Below are positions 55,923 through 64,000 of a stretch of 64,000 bases of DNA, in pieces (position 1 is the stretch's first letter; each line of letters starts with the position of its first letter). The notes beneath the pieces were generated by a model. The model saw only the letters and a list, made by a program, of their open reading frames with translations, did no database searches and was not told the DNA's origin. A program made the translations under genes and the position numbers. Source of the DNA: Clostridiales bacterium. Lineage in GTDB: Bacteria > Bacillota > Clostridia > Christensenellales > Borkfalkiaceae. Location: assembly GCA_015069615.1 (NCBI GenBank), contig SVIF01000006.1, positions 1 to 64,000 of the forward strand. Reading direction: 5' to 3'.

Positions 55923-56156
55923 ATGAAAAATGCATTTGTTTTGCAAGATATTGTTTTAAATCAAATTCGTAGAGAACGCAGTATTGCCTATTTTTCTATG
56001 ATAGACGGAAGGGAAGTTTCGGGAAAAATTCACGGATTTGATCATGAAACCGTTATTATTGACCTTGCAGATGGGAACCAAATGATGTTATATAAGAAAA
56101 ACATCCTTTCTGTGTTGCCCCCAAAGCCAGTTTTAACGGATCACACATCCCTATAA
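55923..56156 (+). CDS. hfq: Hfq-like Sm protein (divergent)
   Basis: KNAFVLQDIVLNQIRRERSIAYFSMIDGREVSGKIHGFDHETVIIDLADGNQMMLYKKNILSVLPP; canonical miaA-hfq synteny. Confidence 0.85.
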   Translation: MKNAFVLQDIVLNQIRRERSIAYFSMIDGREVSGKIHGFDHETVIIDLADGNQMMLYKKNILSVLPPKPVLTDHTSL

Positions 56157-56157
56157 T

Positions 56158-56200
56158 AAAAAAAGCCGTTATCAAACCGATAACGGCTATATTTTTAAGA
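56158..56200. terminator. Bidirectional terminator between hfq and lexA
   Basis: aaaaaaAGCCGTTATCaaaccGATAACGGCTatattttt. Confidence 0.9.
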
Positions 56201-56812
56201 AAAAGTACGGAAAAGACCAACAACTTTACCTAAAATTTGGACGTCGCGCACCATAATGTCGCTATAATCGCGATTTTCAGGGTGCAAAACTATGTAATCA
56301 CTCTTTTTATAGAATCGTTTTACGGTTGCACTGTCATCTAACAGCGCCACCACAATATCTCCATCGTTTGCGGTTTCTTGTTTTTTACAAATCAGCTTAT
56401 CTCCGCTAAAAATTCCTGCATCTACCATACTTTCCCCACGGGCACGAAGTAAAAACATGTTTTCTCCGCTTTTAAATTGCGGGGGAAGGGGGTAATAGTC
56501 TTCAATGTTTTCTTGCGCAAAAATGGGGGTACCGCAAGCAACTTCACCAAGCAAAGGCGCTGTGGGCACACGAGCATCTAATGTTTGGCTTGGGGTGCGG
56601 CATAAACCGATTGCGCGGTTTTTGGAGTCCGTTTTATTGATAAGCCCACGGCTTTTCAGTTTTTCCAAGTAATTAAACGCCGTTGCTGTAGAATTTAAGT
56701 TTAAATCTCTACAAATCTCACGGACGGAGGGGGGATAACCGTTTTCGGCAACGAATGAATCTAAGTATTGCATTAACTCTTGCAGTTTCAGTTCAATTTC
56801 AGACCTTTTCAT
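56195..56812 (-). CDS. lexA: LexA repressor
   Basis: Winged HTH YPPSVREICRDLNLNSTATAFNYLEKLKSRGLI; Ser/Lys dyad ARGESMVDAGIFSGD ... ATVKRFYK. Confidence 0.96.
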   Translation of the reverse strand: MKRSEIELKLQELMQYLDSFVAENGYPPSVREICRDLNLNSTATAFNYLEKLKSRGLINKTDSKNRAIGLCRTPSQTLDARVPTAPLLGEVACGTPIFAQENIEDYYPLPPQFKSGENMFLLRARGESMVDAGIFSGDKLICKKQETANDGDIVVALLDDSATVKRFYKKSDYIVLHPENRDYSDIMVRDVQILGKVVGLFRTFS

Positions 56813-56861
56813 TTGTATTCCTCCTTTTTTATTCATTATATCATATTTTTTTTAATAAATC

Positions 56862-56873
56862 AAACATTTGTTT
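56862..56873. promoter_or_regulatory. Candidate SOS box in the lexA / Cys-rich gene divergent promoter region
   Basis: AAAC-ATTT-GTTT, a variant of Gram-positive GAAC-N4-GTTC; overlaps the lexA -35 (TTGATT-17-TATAAT on - strand). Confidence 0.55.
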
Positions 56874-56883
56874 ACAAGATTTC

Positions 56884-56912
56884 TTGAATTTTTTATTTTT
56901 TTATGATATAAT
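56884..56912 (+). promoter_or_regulatory. Promoter of the Cys-rich small protein gene
   Basis: TTGAAT-17-TATAAT, then aggagg-like RBS. Confidence 0.65.
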
Positions 56913-56931
56913 TAGGATAGGAGGATAAGTT

Positions 56932-57147
56932 ATGAAAGGTGAGCCTTGCGAATTATATGATAGAGAGTGTATTGAATGTGGTGAATGTGATGCTTGCGAT
57001 CTAGATCCCAATAAAACCTGTGATAGTTGCGGAAAATGCTTGCATTTAGAAGAATATTCTAAAATTTTAATTGACGGCATCTTTGAAAGCGAAGAAGCTT
57101 GGGAAGAATTTTTAGCTTCCAAAGCGAACGAAAAAAATATAAAATAA
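56932..57147 (+). CDS. Small Cys-rich (8 Cys, CxxC clusters) putative metal/Fe-S-binding protein
   Basis: MKGEPCELYDRECIECGECDACDLDPNKTCDSCGKCLHLEEYSKI...; RBS ataggagg. Confidence 0.8.
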   Translation: MKGEPCELYDRECIECGECDACDLDPNKTCDSCGKCLHLEEYSKILIDGIFESEEAWEEFLASKANEKNIK

Positions 57148-57162
57148 CAATTTGTTAATTAG

Positions 57163-57198
57163 AAATCCCCCCAAAACAAATTTGGGGGGATTGTTATT
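57163..57198. terminator. Terminator between convergent genes
   Basis: AATCCCCCCaaaacaaatttGGGGGGATTgttatt. Confidence 0.8.
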
Positions 57199-57230
57199 AT
57201 CATTTTTTAAACGGTTGTTTTACAAATGAG

Positions 57231-58334
57231 CTATTCATTTTCTTCGTTTTCGGTTAAATGGGGAAGGTTGGCCGTTTCTTGCGCTTCGTTATTTTTTTGA
57301 TTTCCCAAAAATACGGAGTTTGCGGCAGCCCTACGAATATCGTCTGAAATTGCAGCGTAGTGGCGTTTCGTTGTGTTAACGTCGCTATGACCTAAAACGT
57401 CTGCAACTACGTAAATATCGCCCGTTTGCCGGTATAAATTCGTACCGAACGTGCTACGTAGCTTGTGCGGAGTGATTTTTTTGAGGGGAGTTACGATTTG
57501 GCTATACTTTTTAACTAAATTTTCAACAGCGCGCACGGTAATGCGGCGGTCCTTTTCAGAAACAAACAGTGCACTTTCAGTTTTGGGTAGATTCGGGCGT
57601 TTTGCGCGTGCGGAAATCCATTCCAACAGGGGTGTTTTTACTTGATCCGAAAAATATAGGATTACGCGATTGCCCCCCTTTCTGGTTACGCGGAAACCAT
57701 TGACCGAAAAATCAATATCTTCAACGTTTAAACCAACCAATTCACTAATGCGGATGCCCGTTCCTAAAAACAAGGTAATCATGGCTACGTCGCGAATTTT
57801 TGTTTTTTGGTGTGCGGCTTTTTGGCGGGGTGTTAGTCCTTCGCCATTTTCCACCACCGAAAGAAGAGATGAAAGCTCGCCATCTTCTAAGCGAATAATT
57901 TCTTTTTCATGCAACTTAGGCATGGAAAGCTTTGCTGCCACGTTTGTGTTAATACGATCCCGATTAAACAAGTATTTGTAAAAGGAGCGAACGCTTGCAA
58001 TTTTTCTGGCTTTCGCATGTTCTTTACAATATTCACGCTTTCCGTTAATTTCATACGAAGAAAGGTAACCTGAATAGCGTTCTAAATCATCTGTACGCAA
58101 ATTTTCTAAGTCTTCAAGAGTTATTTCGTTTGGTTTTTTCCCGCGAAATAGTTTTTCACATAAAAAACGGAAGAAAATTCTAAGATCATACGCATAATTT
58201 TTACGTGTTAAGGGAGAGGTTACGTTTTCAATGCCTATAAAGTAATCAGAAGCAAAAGAGGGTAGTTCGTTTAAGATTTCGTCTACCGTTTTTCTGCAAT
58301 TTTCATCCCGTTTTACATAATAATCGTTGCGCAT
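57231..58334 (-). CDS. Tyrosine recombinase, Xer-like
   Basis: SAM-like N-terminal domain; catalytic GTGIRISELVGL, RKGGN, HKLRSTFGTNL, LGHSDVNTTKRHY. Confidence 0.93.
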   Translation of the reverse strand: MRNDYYVKRDENCRKTVDEILNELPSFASDYFIGIENVTSPLTRKNYAYDLRIFFRFLCEKLFRGKKPNEITLEDLENLRTDDLERYSGYLSSYEINGKREYCKEHAKARKIASVRSFYKYLFNRDRINTNVAAKLSMPKLHEKEIIRLEDGELSSLLSVVENGEGLTPRQKAAHQKTKIRDVAMITLFLGTGIRISELVGLNVEDIDFSVNGFRVTRKGGNRVILYFSDQVKTPLLEWISARAKRPNLPKTESALFVSEKDRRITVRAVENLVKKYSQIVTPLKKITPHKLRSTFGTNLYRQTGDIYVVADVLGHSDVNTTKRHYAAISDDIRRAAANSVFLGNQKNNEAQETANLPHLTENEENE

Positions 58335-58445
58335 TTTCTTTTCTCCGTTTTCAGTATATCACAAATTAGAAATAAATGCAAATTTTCTTTGCAAAAAATA
58401 TAATTTTGCGCTATAATATATACGAATACCATAGGAATACATAGT

Positions 58446-59987
58446 ATGAAAACACTAAAGATAAAACACAATTCAAATTTTCCTTTCATTCATCTGCGCC
58501 CTTTTCTATTTGCGGCGCTAGGTTTTATTTTAGGAGTTTTATCTGTATTTCAATACGCGATTTACGGTAAAACCTTTCTTTTTATCCTATTTTTCGCACT
58601 AGTAGTCCTTTTATTTTTAATTTCTGTTTATCAATTTTTCCGCAAAAAATCTAAAATTTTATTGTTTTGTTCAACAATTGTATTTTTCTTTGGAGTATGC
58701 GGTGGGGTTGTTTCGTTTATGCAGGTTTCTGCATATGAACGTGAAGAAATCTCAAACGGGTATTATACCGTTTATGGTACAATTCAGGGCGAGTCAGAAT
58801 TGGAAGACGGATATAGTTTGATGTTATCTGATTTAACATTTAGATCGCATGATGAAACAATTTATTCTAAATATCAAATGCACTTAATTGTTTTTGATAA
58901 AAGGGAGGAGCTTTCTATCGGGAAGCGTATTAAAGCATATGCAAAGATACAAATGCAGGAGAAAGGCGAATATTATTCCTATCAAATGGCAAATGGTATA
59001 AAATACGTGGCGTTTGTAGGGGATAGTACGGTAAATATTGTTGGTGAAACGAAAAATTTCTTTACTAAAATACGATTAAAAGGGATTTCTATTTTAGAAT
59101 CCTTTTTAACGGGAGATCCTCTTTTTCTTTCCACAGGTATCCTGTTTGGGGATACCGCTGATATGGGCGAAGATACACTGGTTCAATTTCGTAAACTGGG
59201 AATAGCTCATATATTTGCCGTTTCAGGCTTGCACATAGGCTTTTTATGTTTAATCATAACAAAATTGCTACGTAGAACAGAAGCGCGCAATCCCATTCGT
59301 TTTCTTTTGCCCACCATTGCTGTATTTTTGTATGCGGGTGTGTGCGGTTTTACGCCTTCTGCCTTGCGTGCGGCAATTATGTGTGCTACTACATTATTCT
59401 TCACTTATATTGGCGCGCCATACGATAGCCTAAGTGGTGTTTTATTTAGCGCAATTGTTGTTTTGACGATCAATCCGGCAGACGTGATGTCGTACGGATT
59501 TATTCTTTCATATGCGTGTGTGCTATCTATTATAATCCTTGCTCCAATATTTAAACGCTTTTTGCGTCCTTTACCAGCTAAAATAGGGGATAGTTTAGCA
59601 ATTTCTCTGGGAATTCAAGTAGGCGTTTTTCCCATACAAATGTTGTTGTTTGGGTTTGCTGCGCCCATTTCTATATTGCTAAATCTAATTTTTATTCCCA
59701 TAATTACGGTCCTATATATTCTTTTAGTGCTATCCGTTTTGTGCGTGGCTATGCTACCTGAGTTTGCGTTGATATTAGTTTGTTTTCAAAAAATATTTGA
59801 AGTGCTATTATTGATCATAGGTAAAATTCCCAGCAACTTTACGATTGGCAGTTTTGATATTCGTGGGGGAGTGGCTGCGTATTACTTAGGCGTATTCATA
59901 TCCTCTTATCATGTAAATCTAAAAGGATGGGTAAAAATAGTTTTAGCCTCAAGTTGCTTTTTAACGTTCCTAATTATAGTATTGTAA
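58446..59987 (+). CDS. comEC: ComEC/Rec2-type competence membrane protein, short form
   Basis: DUF4131-like N-terminus then FRKLGIAHIFAVSGLHIGFLCLIITKLL...GFTPSALRAAIMCATTLFFTYIGAPYDSLSGVLFSAIVVLTINPADVMSYGFILSYACVLSI; no metallo-beta-lactamase domain in frame. Confidence 0.88.
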   Translation: MKTLKIKHNSNFPFIHLRPFLFAALGFILGVLSVFQYAIYGKTFLFILFFALVVLLFLISVYQFFRKKSKILLFCSTIVFFFGVCGGVVSFMQVSAYEREEISNGYYTVYGTIQGESELEDGYSLMLSDLTFRSHDETIYSKYQMHLIVFDKREELSIGKRIKAYAKIQMQEKGEYYSYQMANGIKYVAFVGDSTVNIVGETKNFFTKIRLKGISILESFLTGDPLFLSTGILFGDTADMGEDTLVQFRKLGIAHIFAVSGLHIGFLCLIITKLLRRTEARNPIRFLLPTIAVFLYAGVCGFTPSALRAAIMCATTLFFTYIGAPYDSLSGVLFSAIVVLTINPADVMSYGFILSYACVLSIIILAPIFKRFLRPLPAKIGDSLAISLGIQVGVFPIQMLLFGFAAPISILLNLIFIPIITVLYILLVLSVLCVAMLPEFALILVCFQKIFEVLLLIIGKIPSNFTIGSFDIRGGVAAYYLGVFISSYHVNLKGWVKIVLASSCFLTFLIIVL

Positions 59988-60110
59988 TATTAAAAATAAT
60001 TTTTAAAGAAAAAAATCAGCCAAAACAAAAAATATTGGAGAGAGTTTTTAATGTTATGTTAGACAAAAATCGTGTTAGGGAAGAAAGGATGTTAAAAACG
60101 TAATGCGTTA

Positions 60111-60146
60111 TATCTATTCGCAAAAGTCTTGTTTTGCGAATAGATA
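60111..60146. repeat. Perfect 15-bp inverted repeat, 6-nt loop
   Basis: TATCTATTCGCAAAA gtcttg TTTTGCGAATAGATA. Confidence 0.9.
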
Positions 60147-60396
60147 AGGGGTAAAACAGGTAAGAATATAGGAATTTAGCATTTTTAACCATCATATTAC
60201 CTTTAATAAATTTTTTAAAATGTTATCTTAACTGCGATTTTAGAACTTGGATTATCCATAATTTTATGTTTCATTTCGTTATTTTTTTATCAAACTGCTT
60301 TGTTTATTGATATTTTTTCCTTTATATCATGAATTTTAAATGATACAATGGACAAGCTACTGCATTGAGTTAAATTATAAATAAGAAAAACAAAAT

Positions 60397-60607
60397 TGTG
60401 GATAACTTAATCAATTAGTAAAAAGCCATAAAATTTTACGAATTTTTATTGAATTTCATACAAATAGACGCCTTTAAAATCACTTAAAATCACTTAAAAT
60501 AGCCTAAAATGCGTATTTTTGTGGATAACATACCCATTTTGTGGATAAATTTGCCAAAACTTGTGGATAAAGTGCATTTTTATCCACATTTTGCATTTTT
60601 ATCCAAA
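60397..60607. promoter_or_regulatory. DnaA-box cluster (5 exact 9-mers + 1 near match)
   Basis: TGTGGATAA at 60397, 60520, 60540, 60562; TTATCCACA at 60580; TTATCCAAA at 60599. Confidence 0.8.
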
Positions 60608-60647
60608 AAACACCCTTCAAAAAACACTGAAAACTGGTAACAGCAAT

Positions 60648-60682
60648 AAAAAAACAGCCAAAACAATAGGCTGTTTTTTACG
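60648..60682. terminator. Hairpin terminator
   Basis: aaaaACAGCCaaaacaataGGCTGTttttta. Confidence 0.75.
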
Positions 60683-60762
60683 TTTTTTAGGTAAATATTT
60701 AGTAATAAAATTTTATGAAAGTAAAACTATATTTTAAAATTAAACTCCCCCATTTAATAGTA

Positions 60763-61419
60763 TTATCGGTACAAAGTATCTTTAATGCGATAAAGTTCTA
60801 GGGCTTTTCTGCGTTTTTTGTAGTCGGGAATATAAATTTCTACTTCCTTCCAAAAATCTTTACTGTGATCAAAGTGCTTTAAGTGTGCCAATTCATGCAC
60901 AACAACGTATTCTACAAGTGGATAATCCACCATAATAATACGCCAGGAGAAGGTTAAATCGCCTTCATTTGTGCATGCGCCGTTTCTACTTTTATAGTCT
61001 TTAATTTCAACGGATTTAGGGGTAACGCCCATTTTTGCCGCGTATTCCTTTACAATTTCGGGAATTAACTTAACAGCTTCGTTCTTTAAAACACGTTTTG
61101 CATTTCTTGCCACGTCTTGACCAAACTTTACGGCAAACCAGCGTTCGGTTAACTTTGTAGTATCGTCCACACGAACAACGGACATCTTTTTACCGAGAAA
61201 AAGAATTTTTTTACACTTTATTACGTCGTCAAAATAGTGCTTTTCTTGTTCATTTTGGGAAATTTGCTTATTGATCCAGTCCTCGTGCTTTGCAAGAAAG
61301 ATTAAGATGCGTTCTTCAGATAATCCGTTGGGTGCCTTTACAAGCACGCCTTTTTTAGGGTGATAGGCAACGCTTAACGTTTTTCTATCCGAGCGTTCTA
61401 AAGTGTATTCGTAATCCAC
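60763..61419 (-). CDS. YgjP/DUF45-like zinc metallopeptidase
   Basis: VVHELAHLKHFDHSKDFWKEVEIYIPDYKKRRKAL; ORF extends to 61437, GTG at 61419 has the better RBS (GGGAGG). Confidence 0.88.
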   Translation of the reverse strand: MDYEYTLERSDRKTLSVAYHPKKGVLVKAPNGLSEERILIFLAKHEDWINKQISQNEQEKHYFDDVIKCKKILFLGKKMSVVRVDDTTKLTERWFAVKFGQDVARNAKRVLKNEAVKLIPEIVKEYAAKMGVTPKSVEIKDYKSRNGACTNEGDLTFSWRIIMVDYPLVEYVVVHELAHLKHFDHSKDFWKEVEIYIPDYKKRRKALELYRIKDTLYR

Positions 61420-61574
61420 GTTTGGGGTTCCTCCCACATGTAATTTTTCTACCTATATTGTACTATAAAATTTAAAAATTGTCTATATAATAGCTGGATT
61501 TTTTTAAAATTTCAAAATTTTTATTGTTTTAGTAAGATTTTTTTACATAAATTGTCTGACATACTAATTTGCAA

Positions 61575-61641: not shown

Positions 61642-64000
61642 TGGATTTTGATGAAAATAAATACGGAAAATCCCCCTTTTTAGATGACGACGAGCAAAAG
61701 AAGTATGATTCACCCGTAAATGCGGAAAGCGCAGAAAGCGACGATGATGACGATTTTTTTCCGACCTGGCAACGAAAAAGTTTTTTGGAACAAACATTAA
61801 AACGTGATGAAGATGAGGAAGAAGACGACTTTTTTAAGTCTTCTCCCCTTTCATATTCCATTTATGACGATAAGGATGAAGACCAATCGGCCCCCTTGGC
61901 GGACTCTTCCTTTTTTGCGTTAGATACCCCCGAAGATGATGATGAAACGATGGAAATTTCCAACAATAGCGAAACTGCGGACGAAATTTCTATCCAAAGC
62001 GAAATTAACGCAAATGAAGATGATTTCCAAGAAAATGCCCCTTCTTTTAACGAAATGACAGATGCGAACGAAGTAGCAGAAGCGGATGATGAAGAAATTG
62101 ATACGTCCGATATCAGCGATTCGTTGGAAATTGTAACGGAAGATAAAGAAACGCTTGATGTAAATGGCACGATAGCGGAATCGGAAGATATCACCGAAGA
62201 AACAACGTCAGCTGTAAAAGATGAAGATATTGACCAAAACGAAATTATTGAATCAAACGAAGAAGAAAGCGTTTTGAGAATAGATGACAACTTAATCGAA
62301 CAGGAAAATACCGCAAAAGATACCGAATTTGTGGCAGATGCCGACGTGGAAAGTAAAGAACAACCCGAAACTGATGAACTATTCCCCCAAGAAATAGAAG
62401 AAACGAACGAAACAAACGCGGAAGCTTCTGTTGAAGGAAGCAGTTTAGACGAATCTATTCAAGAAGCAGTGTCTCAGCCTTCGGTTACAATTAGCAGTGA
62501 TTTAATTCGCGGACATATAAATACCATCATTTTAAGAACGCTTAGTGAAGGTGATCGCTACGGTTTAGAAATTATTCAAGAAATTGAAAGAAAAACGTGC
62601 GGTCAATATACGATAAAACAACCCACTTTATATAGTTCCTTGCGCCGTTTAGAAAATAGCGGATATATCACTTCATATTGGGGATCTGGCGAAACCAACG
62701 GTGGTAGACGCCGTTACTACGCTTTAACCGATAACGGAAGAAAAATTACCGACCAAAACCGCGCAGAATGGGAATATTCGCGCACAATTATTGATAATTT
62801 AATTTCCACCAAGGAATATGACTTAAATGCTACGCCTCCTACCGCGATTGATTTTACGTTGTTGAAAGGCGCAACCACCCGTGTTTTTGGTGCTGACCGA
62901 AAAGAATCCGAAAAAGAAATCAGTGCAATGGAAGAAAAGCGCGAAGAACTCCATAGGCAAATGGAAGAAGAGCAAGACGCGCTTGATCGGTTAAAATCAG
63001 AGCGAGACGACGTTAATTTGGCGCTTTCAGAAACGCTTGAAAAGACCCGCGAAATAGAACAATTGCAAGCAATGCGCTTGGAAGAACTAGAACAGCAAAA
63101 AGCTGAACTGGAAAAATTAAAGCGTGAACAAGAAGAAATTGCACTTGATATTTCCAGAAAACAAGAATATGCAAATGCAATTCCCACCGTTAGCGAAATG
63201 GAACGTACCGAAAGGGATTATAAAAACATTTTAGGTAGAATTTTCCCCCAAGAAAACGTACAATCTAACGAGCCAATGGTGAACGCAACTGAAACCTTAA
63301 CTAATTATAATGCACAACCCGAACCGGAAGAAGAAAAAATCGCAGAACGCGACGGTGATTTTGAAAAATATCCAGATTTTTGGAGTTTTGAAGAAGAAAC
63401 TGTGAAAAATTCGACTAAAAATGAAGAAAAAAATGCGTTTGTTCGTATGGATGAAGCCGAAAATAATCACTTCCCCGAAACGGAAACTTATGAGCGTAAC
63501 GATAATTTTTCCGAATTTATTCGCAAGCACACCGAAACTTCCGAAGAAATGAAACGCAGAGATGCAATTCAAGATTACGCTTCTACCCCTAAACGCAGAC
63601 AAGGAAAAATTGATTTTTCTGATATTTTTGCGTATGCAGACCGCAATCAAATGCGCGTTCGCTCGTACGTTGGCAATAAAACCGCAAGCAATCAAACACA
63701 AAAAAATAGTTTATTGTTTGTAAATAAAGTGCGCGCGTTAAGCATCTGCTTGCTTTACTTAATTATGATGTCGGAATTAGTGCTTTGCTACGTATTTACG
63801 GCAGATATCGTAGGCTGGAAAACCGAATTTTTCTATGCTGGAATTGTATTTACCGTACTTCCTGTTTTTGCACTTACTTTGCTACTTTCCGCATCGCAAA
63901 AACTAATTGTTCCGCGAAATAACGGAAAAGAAGCCCTGCTTACTTCCATCATTGTGATTTTTAACTTCTTCCTAATTTTAATCGTTTTGGCGCTGGTTAT
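61642..64000 (+). CDS. Large PadR-type winged-helix protein: acidic N-terminal region + PadR HTH + coiled coil + C-terminal TM segments (3' end outside window; missing from ORF track)
   Basis: Continuous frame MDFDENKYGKSPFLDDDEQKK...; HTH SSDLIRGHINTIILRTLSEGDRYGLEIIQEIERKTCGQYTIKQPTLYSSLRRLENSGYITSYWGSGETNGGRRRYYALTDNGRK; EEKREELHRQMEEEQDALDRLKSERDD coiled coil; RALSICLLYLIMMSELVLCYVF TM. Confidence 0.85.

Follow-up and report, generated by a model that had tools for sequence, protein, structure and literature searches.

A few model bacteria are known to have sites, separate from oriC, that titrate or reactivate DnaA. A dense group of DnaA boxes in an intergenic gap of a clostridial genome raises the question of whether it is an origin of replication, a site of this kind, or something else. 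The gap separates comEC from ygjP in the window, i.e. the whole 64,000-nucleotide stretch that was analysed, which belongs to a 73-kb contig of a draft metagenome assembly (1.43 Mb, 41 contigs, 86% complete). An initial annotation, made from the letters alone, had weighed a normal origin, a relocated one, a DnaA titration or regulatory cluster and DnaA control of nearby genes.

DnaA boxes in the comEC-ygjP gap

The gap extends from 59988 to 60762 and has a GC content of 25%. Its boxes, repeats and flanking genes are as follows:

58446..59987, + strand: comEC (Competence domain, without an MBL domain), between xer and dif here
60252, + strand: additional weak box TTATCCATA
60397..60405, - strand: exact DnaA box TTATCCACA, motif match
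about 60475..60510, + strand: four TAAAAT units at exact 10-bp spacing, AT-rich, with helically phased A-tracts
60520..60528, - strand: exact DnaA box TTATCCACA, motif match
60540..60548, - strand: exact DnaA box TTATCCACA, motif match
60562..60570, - strand: exact DnaA box TTATCCACA, left half of a facing pair, motif match
60580..60588, + strand: exact DnaA box TTATCCACA, right half of the facing pair, motif match
60599..60607, + strand: variant box TTATCCAAA, motif match
60645..60690, no strand: hairpin AAAAAACAGCC...GGCTGTTTTTT, read from the sequence
60763..61437, - strand: ygjP-like metallopeptidase gene, 3' end towards the cluster

The content first described for this site was confirmed by motif matching and shuffling: five exact 9-mers, one variant and the four phased TAAAAT units all fall within 211 bp of the gap. 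Two boxes do face each other, at 60562-60588 (TGTGGATAAAGTGCATTTTTATCCACA), and the reported AT-rich 10-mer repeats take the form of TAAAAT units in exact 10-bp steps, a run which resembles a DUE or curved DNA. In dinucleotide shuffles of the 775-bp gap, exact boxes averaged 0.009 with a maximum of 1, against 5 observed, and the four phased TAAAAT units were reproduced in none of 5000 shuffles; a Poisson estimate from the box rate of the genome gives about 2e-15 per 211-bp window. Being far above chance expectation, the cluster is taken as real. Nowhere else in the 73-kb contig do at least two TTWTNCACA boxes share a 250-bp window. The whole assembly contains 26 exact boxes and one further group of at least three, on contig C19, and the cluster at 60397-60607 is the densest group of exact boxes in the genome.

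The arrangement has features of two kinds of site. At least three boxes with a mean spacing below 100 bp, outside oriC, are what characterises a cluster of the DBC or datA type, while consensus boxes beside AT-rich DNA are also found at an oriC. No DnaA-trio-like run was found beside the boxes, but the search pattern likewise gave none at the control clusters of relatives.

The second cluster of this genome lies upstream of cwlD (L028:8826-9044, on contig C19), and a box cluster directly upstream of cwlD is kept in many genera of the family (L371, L377, L362, L367, L379, L381, L385, L386, L370, L374, L378, L384). It points to the protein which reads the boxes. In this genome dnaA is truncated at the edge of a contig, but its DNA-binding part is present and has the canonical GRDHTT recognition motif. 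In genomes whose DnaA carries GRDHAT instead (4/4, from two genera), the cwlD boxes are mostly TTATCAACA, whereas the examined GRDHTT genomes with a cwlD cluster have TTATCCACA boxes. That the box sequence changes together with a residue of the helix supports DnaA as the reader of the boxes in this family, and the GRDHTT helix, in combination with the paired change at cwlD, makes TTATCCACA the box expected here. The paired change of residue and box may represent a single evolutionary event. By the same token, DnaA would be expected to bind the cluster in the comEC-ygjP gap. The cwlD cluster itself is considered a non-origin cluster because of its mid-arm position, which is evident in G024, where the skew is positive throughout and dif is 60 kb away.

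Direction of replication, Xer recombinase and putative dif site

The flanking genes had been described as mostly on the + strand on both sides, which is incorrect for the right side. Genes to the left of the gap are mostly + (mutS-mutL-miaA-hfq); to the right, ygjP is on the - strand and is followed by one + gene with a PadR domain, after which all genes are - to the end of the contig, including those which, from their translations, we take to be rluB, dacF-like, ytfJ-like, scpB and scpA. Genes thus converge at the gap, and the 3' ends of both comEC (+) and ygjP (-) face it. The hairpin at 60645-60690 is likely the terminator of ygjP; it was not among the matches of a terminator scan. With convergent 3' ends, and behind the likely ygjP terminator, no gene would be transcribed from the gap. 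This bears on whether DnaA could regulate the transcription of comEC, ygjP or a small RNA: DnaA boxes can occur in promoters and the gap holds weak promoter-like matches, but these are near the shuffle mean (9 vs 6.3), no Rfam family exceeds its gathering threshold, and both flanking genes end here. With the boxes between two 3' ends, the control of nearby genes that had been proposed appears highly unlikely.

GC skew is about +0.1 to the left and about -0.1 to the right of the gap along the contig, and cumulative GC skew reaches its maximum at 63456, 3 kb from the cluster. Where the signal of a relative is clear (e.g. L158, L160, L161, L166 and L169), its orthologous Xer gene shows the same turn from + to -; at the Xer locus of L156, L163, L168, L170 and L172 the skew is too weak to read. 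Given a G-rich leading strand, such a turn means that replication forks meet here, and the region of the gap is accordingly predicted to be the replication terminus, opposite of the origin, although skew and gene orientation reflect the course of the forks only indirectly. Two further features belong to this setting:

57231..58334, - strand: XerS-like tyrosine recombinase gene; no other Xer-type gene was found in the genome
60111..60146, no strand: putative dif, TATCTATTCGCAAAA-GTCTTG-TTTTGCGAATAGATA, with perfect 15-bp inverted arms around a 6-bp spacer; its core recurs at the Xer gene in relatives

Most of 60 relatives have an ortholog of the Xer gene, with about 47-61% identity. Residues R195, K219, H290, R293, H316 and Y326, the catalytic positions of tyrosine recombinases, are invariant in the Xer alignment. 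Among NCBIfam profiles, the best curated family is XerS (NF003462), and the recombinase is called XerS-like only, since its score of 210.6 bits is below the cut-off of 267.

The standard Firmicutes dif consensus has no good match in the window or in relatives. It was the comparison of short-spacer inverted repeats near xer across relatives that exposed a shared site, CTATTCGYAAAA-N6-TTTTRCGAATAG. In a whole-genome scan, the perfect core was found beside xer in most of the same-family genomes listed and in some of other families of the order, which is taken to be Christensenellales of GTDB; 60111-60146 is the only perfect match in this genome. Against a matrix derived from relatives it reaches 45.3 bits, while the rest of the contig remains below 6 bits. 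An independent set comprised 80 xer loci from named assemblies, including Pumilibacter intestinalis and Candidatus Ornithoclostridium, of which 5 were without upstream sequence and 75 with coverage. The core was perfect at 58 loci, had one mismatch at 6 and was missing at 11, so that dif is present in 64 of the 75 covered loci, always on the 5' side of xer and at a median distance of 306 bp. In the relative L236 (CANRHI010000005.1, 4469-9711), two dif copies enclose a microvirus prophage directly beside the XerS-like gene, which is what one would expect of phages that exploit Xer; the prophage genes encode a capsid F protein (PF02305, 2.7e-93) and a replication protein matching PF23343. The linkage to a single xer, the position at clear skew turns and the microvirus between two copies are the reasons for calling the site at 60111-60146 the putative dif of this order, and the L236 arrangement suggests that recombination takes place at it. 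A dif module has two inverted arms of about 11 bp around a centre of 6-8 bp (11 bp for XerS); the inverted arms found here, their 6-bp centre, the terminus position and the linkage to a single Xer gene across relatives agree with this type.

Single-Xer systems with these traits have been described as XerS/difSL in streptococci and lactococci and as XerH/difH (PMC5357621), where, as here, there is a single Xer of about 350 aa and the site is beside its gene in the terminus. However, the arms of difSL are unequal and its centre measures 11 bp, whereas the site here has a 6-bp centre and near-perfect palindromic arms (CTATTCGYAAAA / TTTTRCGAATAG), and the recombinase falls below the XerS cut-off.

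Some other matches were recorded in relatives. In G001, a candidate dif (C136) falls within a coding gene and is a chance match. G018 has two perfect dif cores, C9:14144 and C16:35624, one of them at a contig end, which may be due to a break in the assembly or to the insertion of a further element at dif. Repeated palindromes of the TCCGCAAAATCAGGATTTTGCGGA type, several per genome, occur on contigs C5, C6 and C7 of G038. A different palindrome, AAACAAATGTTT, possibly the LexA box of this family, is shared by 8 of 21 xer/lexA regions (L153-L172 and 56000-61000 of the window).

The skew, the gene direction and dif together lead to the rejection of an origin reading. The cluster had rightly been described as an orphan, away from dnaA, dnaN and rpmH: dnaA is on another contig, and none of the oriC neighbours dnaA, dnaN, rpmH and rsmG is near. 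The main chromosomal origin, whether normal or recently moved, could be sought here because this is the densest exact-box cluster of the genome and the known oriC neighbourhood is incomplete in the assembly, dnaA being cut by a contig end. However, where an oriC would show a skew minimum and a divergent switch of genes, a cumulative skew maximum and convergent genes were found, with dif in the same gap. In relatives, moreover, the origin would lie elsewhere: the skew minimum of G003, near 119 kb of contig C4, is some 5 kb away from a group of boxes immediately upstream of rsmG, a gene which in G035 adjoins dnaN, rnpA, yidD, yidC and jag. In relatives (L100, L102, L103, L111), dnaA is found beside mnmG and away from dnaN-rnpA-yidC, in a stretch without box clusters, and is divergent to another gene, which in G007 is recF. 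The classic oriC neighbourhood is thus split in this family, and a main origin at the cluster, in its normal place or relocated, is very unlikely.

The AT-rich phased repeats beside five consensus boxes resemble an origin, and a secondary or back-up one could be active in the terminus, fired by DnaA. The skew, though, indicates forks that meet rather than leave, and no DnaA-trio-like run was found, albeit nor at the control clusters of relatives; we regard such an origin as improbable.

The cluster and dif in relatives

The first exact box starts 251 bp to the right of dif, which invites the question of whether the two belong together. In two syntenic relatives, G009 and G026, the order is lexA, a 409/410-aa gene (probably hflX), xer, dif, ygjP and PadR; this common gene order supports the assembly across the gap. 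The distance from dif to the 3' end of ygjP is 617 bp here, compared with about 43 bp (G009) and 90 bp (G026), and the cluster sits in about 550 bp of extra DNA which both relatives lack. Furthermore, comEC has come to lie between xer and dif here, whereas the relatives examined have it at other places.

Within 1 kb of dif, no box cluster was found in 64 relatives, and box enrichment near dif can be dismissed for them, with 2 exact boxes in 127 kb. Without conservation near dif at these 64 loci, selection for a role in the terminus is unsupported. In G001, the only other genome of the genus, ygjP, xer and comEC are missing from the assembly. A link to comEC was likewise discarded, as 29 comEC loci of relatives are without a cluster. 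Boxes 3' of ygjP occur in two other families, in G043 and G048 (L339:8754-8853 and L340:9099-9220); those of G043 are kept in its close relative G061, those of G048 are absent in G062, and the association is a probable coincidence. Similar clusters at many intergenic loci and a lack of conservation in relatives, together with an absence of DnaA binding, were to mark the cluster as chance; the first did not materialise, the single other exact-box cluster being upstream of cwlD, while the second did for this place. The cluster is probably specific to this one lineage, in which it lies beside dif.

A lineage-specific insertion beside dif could also be the remnant of a mobile replicon, plasmid or phage, which entered at dif via Xer and lost everything except its old origin, represented by the boxes and AT repeats. 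Several observations are in agreement with this: the dif of this order seems to be a working insertion site, judging by the L236 microvirus, which is enclosed by two copies of it; next to dif there are about 550 bp of extra DNA, with a GC content of 25%; the layout of phased AT repeats followed by boxes is origin-like; and dif-xer distances vary widely among relatives, up to 7.6 kb. Elements that insert beside dif, microvirus proviruses included, are known as IMEX (PMC5357621, PMC3091885), and the L236 prophage is a real case in a relative. An IMEX has two dif or att copies flanking its genes; in contrast, the window has a single site. The gap contains neither another dif nor a half site, its best PWM score being -3.4 bits, no element genes are left, and no meaningful similarity to phages or plasmids was seen. 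A replicon remnant is the main alternative source of the cluster, though less likely than the reading preferred below.

DnaA binding outside oriC and its meaning

The reading we tentatively prefer, at somewhat less than even confidence, is that of a DnaA-binding site distinct from oriC, like the DBCs of B. subtilis, which is now beside dif in the terminus of one lineage. Of the options in the initial annotation, titration or a DBC-type cluster remains the best, and the normal or relocated oriC has been abandoned. The B. subtilis DBCs (Okumura et al. 2012, cited in PMC5295017 and PMC13220808), as far as these citing papers describe them, also consist of several consensus boxes in an intergenic gap off oriC, and such clusters are reported to bind DnaA without starting replication (PMC5295017, PMC13220808). 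Going by the title of the 2012 study, they are oriC-proximal, whereas the cluster here is beside dif in the terminus and lineage-specific. The datA, DARS1 and DARS2 sites of E. coli (PMC4585315, PMC13220808) are non-coding box clusters that could modulate DnaA, as could the one described here, which differs in its terminus position; the comparison covers box content. A DnaA-box cluster beside dif was not found described in the literature searched, which is weak evidence of novelty.

Under the preferred reading, DnaA would bind the boxes via its canonical GRDHTT helix, and the resulting nucleoprotein complex would sequester or remodel DnaA. As a site copied last, it would double its DnaA-binding capacity only when replication ends. 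That the locus goes further, and links the completion of one round of replication with the start of the next by changing free or ATP-bound DnaA once the terminus has been copied, or fires as a back-up origin there, seems rather unlikely. A box cluster copied last would nonetheless offer a simple means of making initiation depend on termination. The pairing of helix residue and box at cwlD offers a natural specificity switch for study. Finally, a palindromic putative dif with a single XerS-like recombinase is now defined for a large and mostly uncultured clostridial group, where it would mark the terminus in draft genomes and explain the place of insertion of at least one phage.
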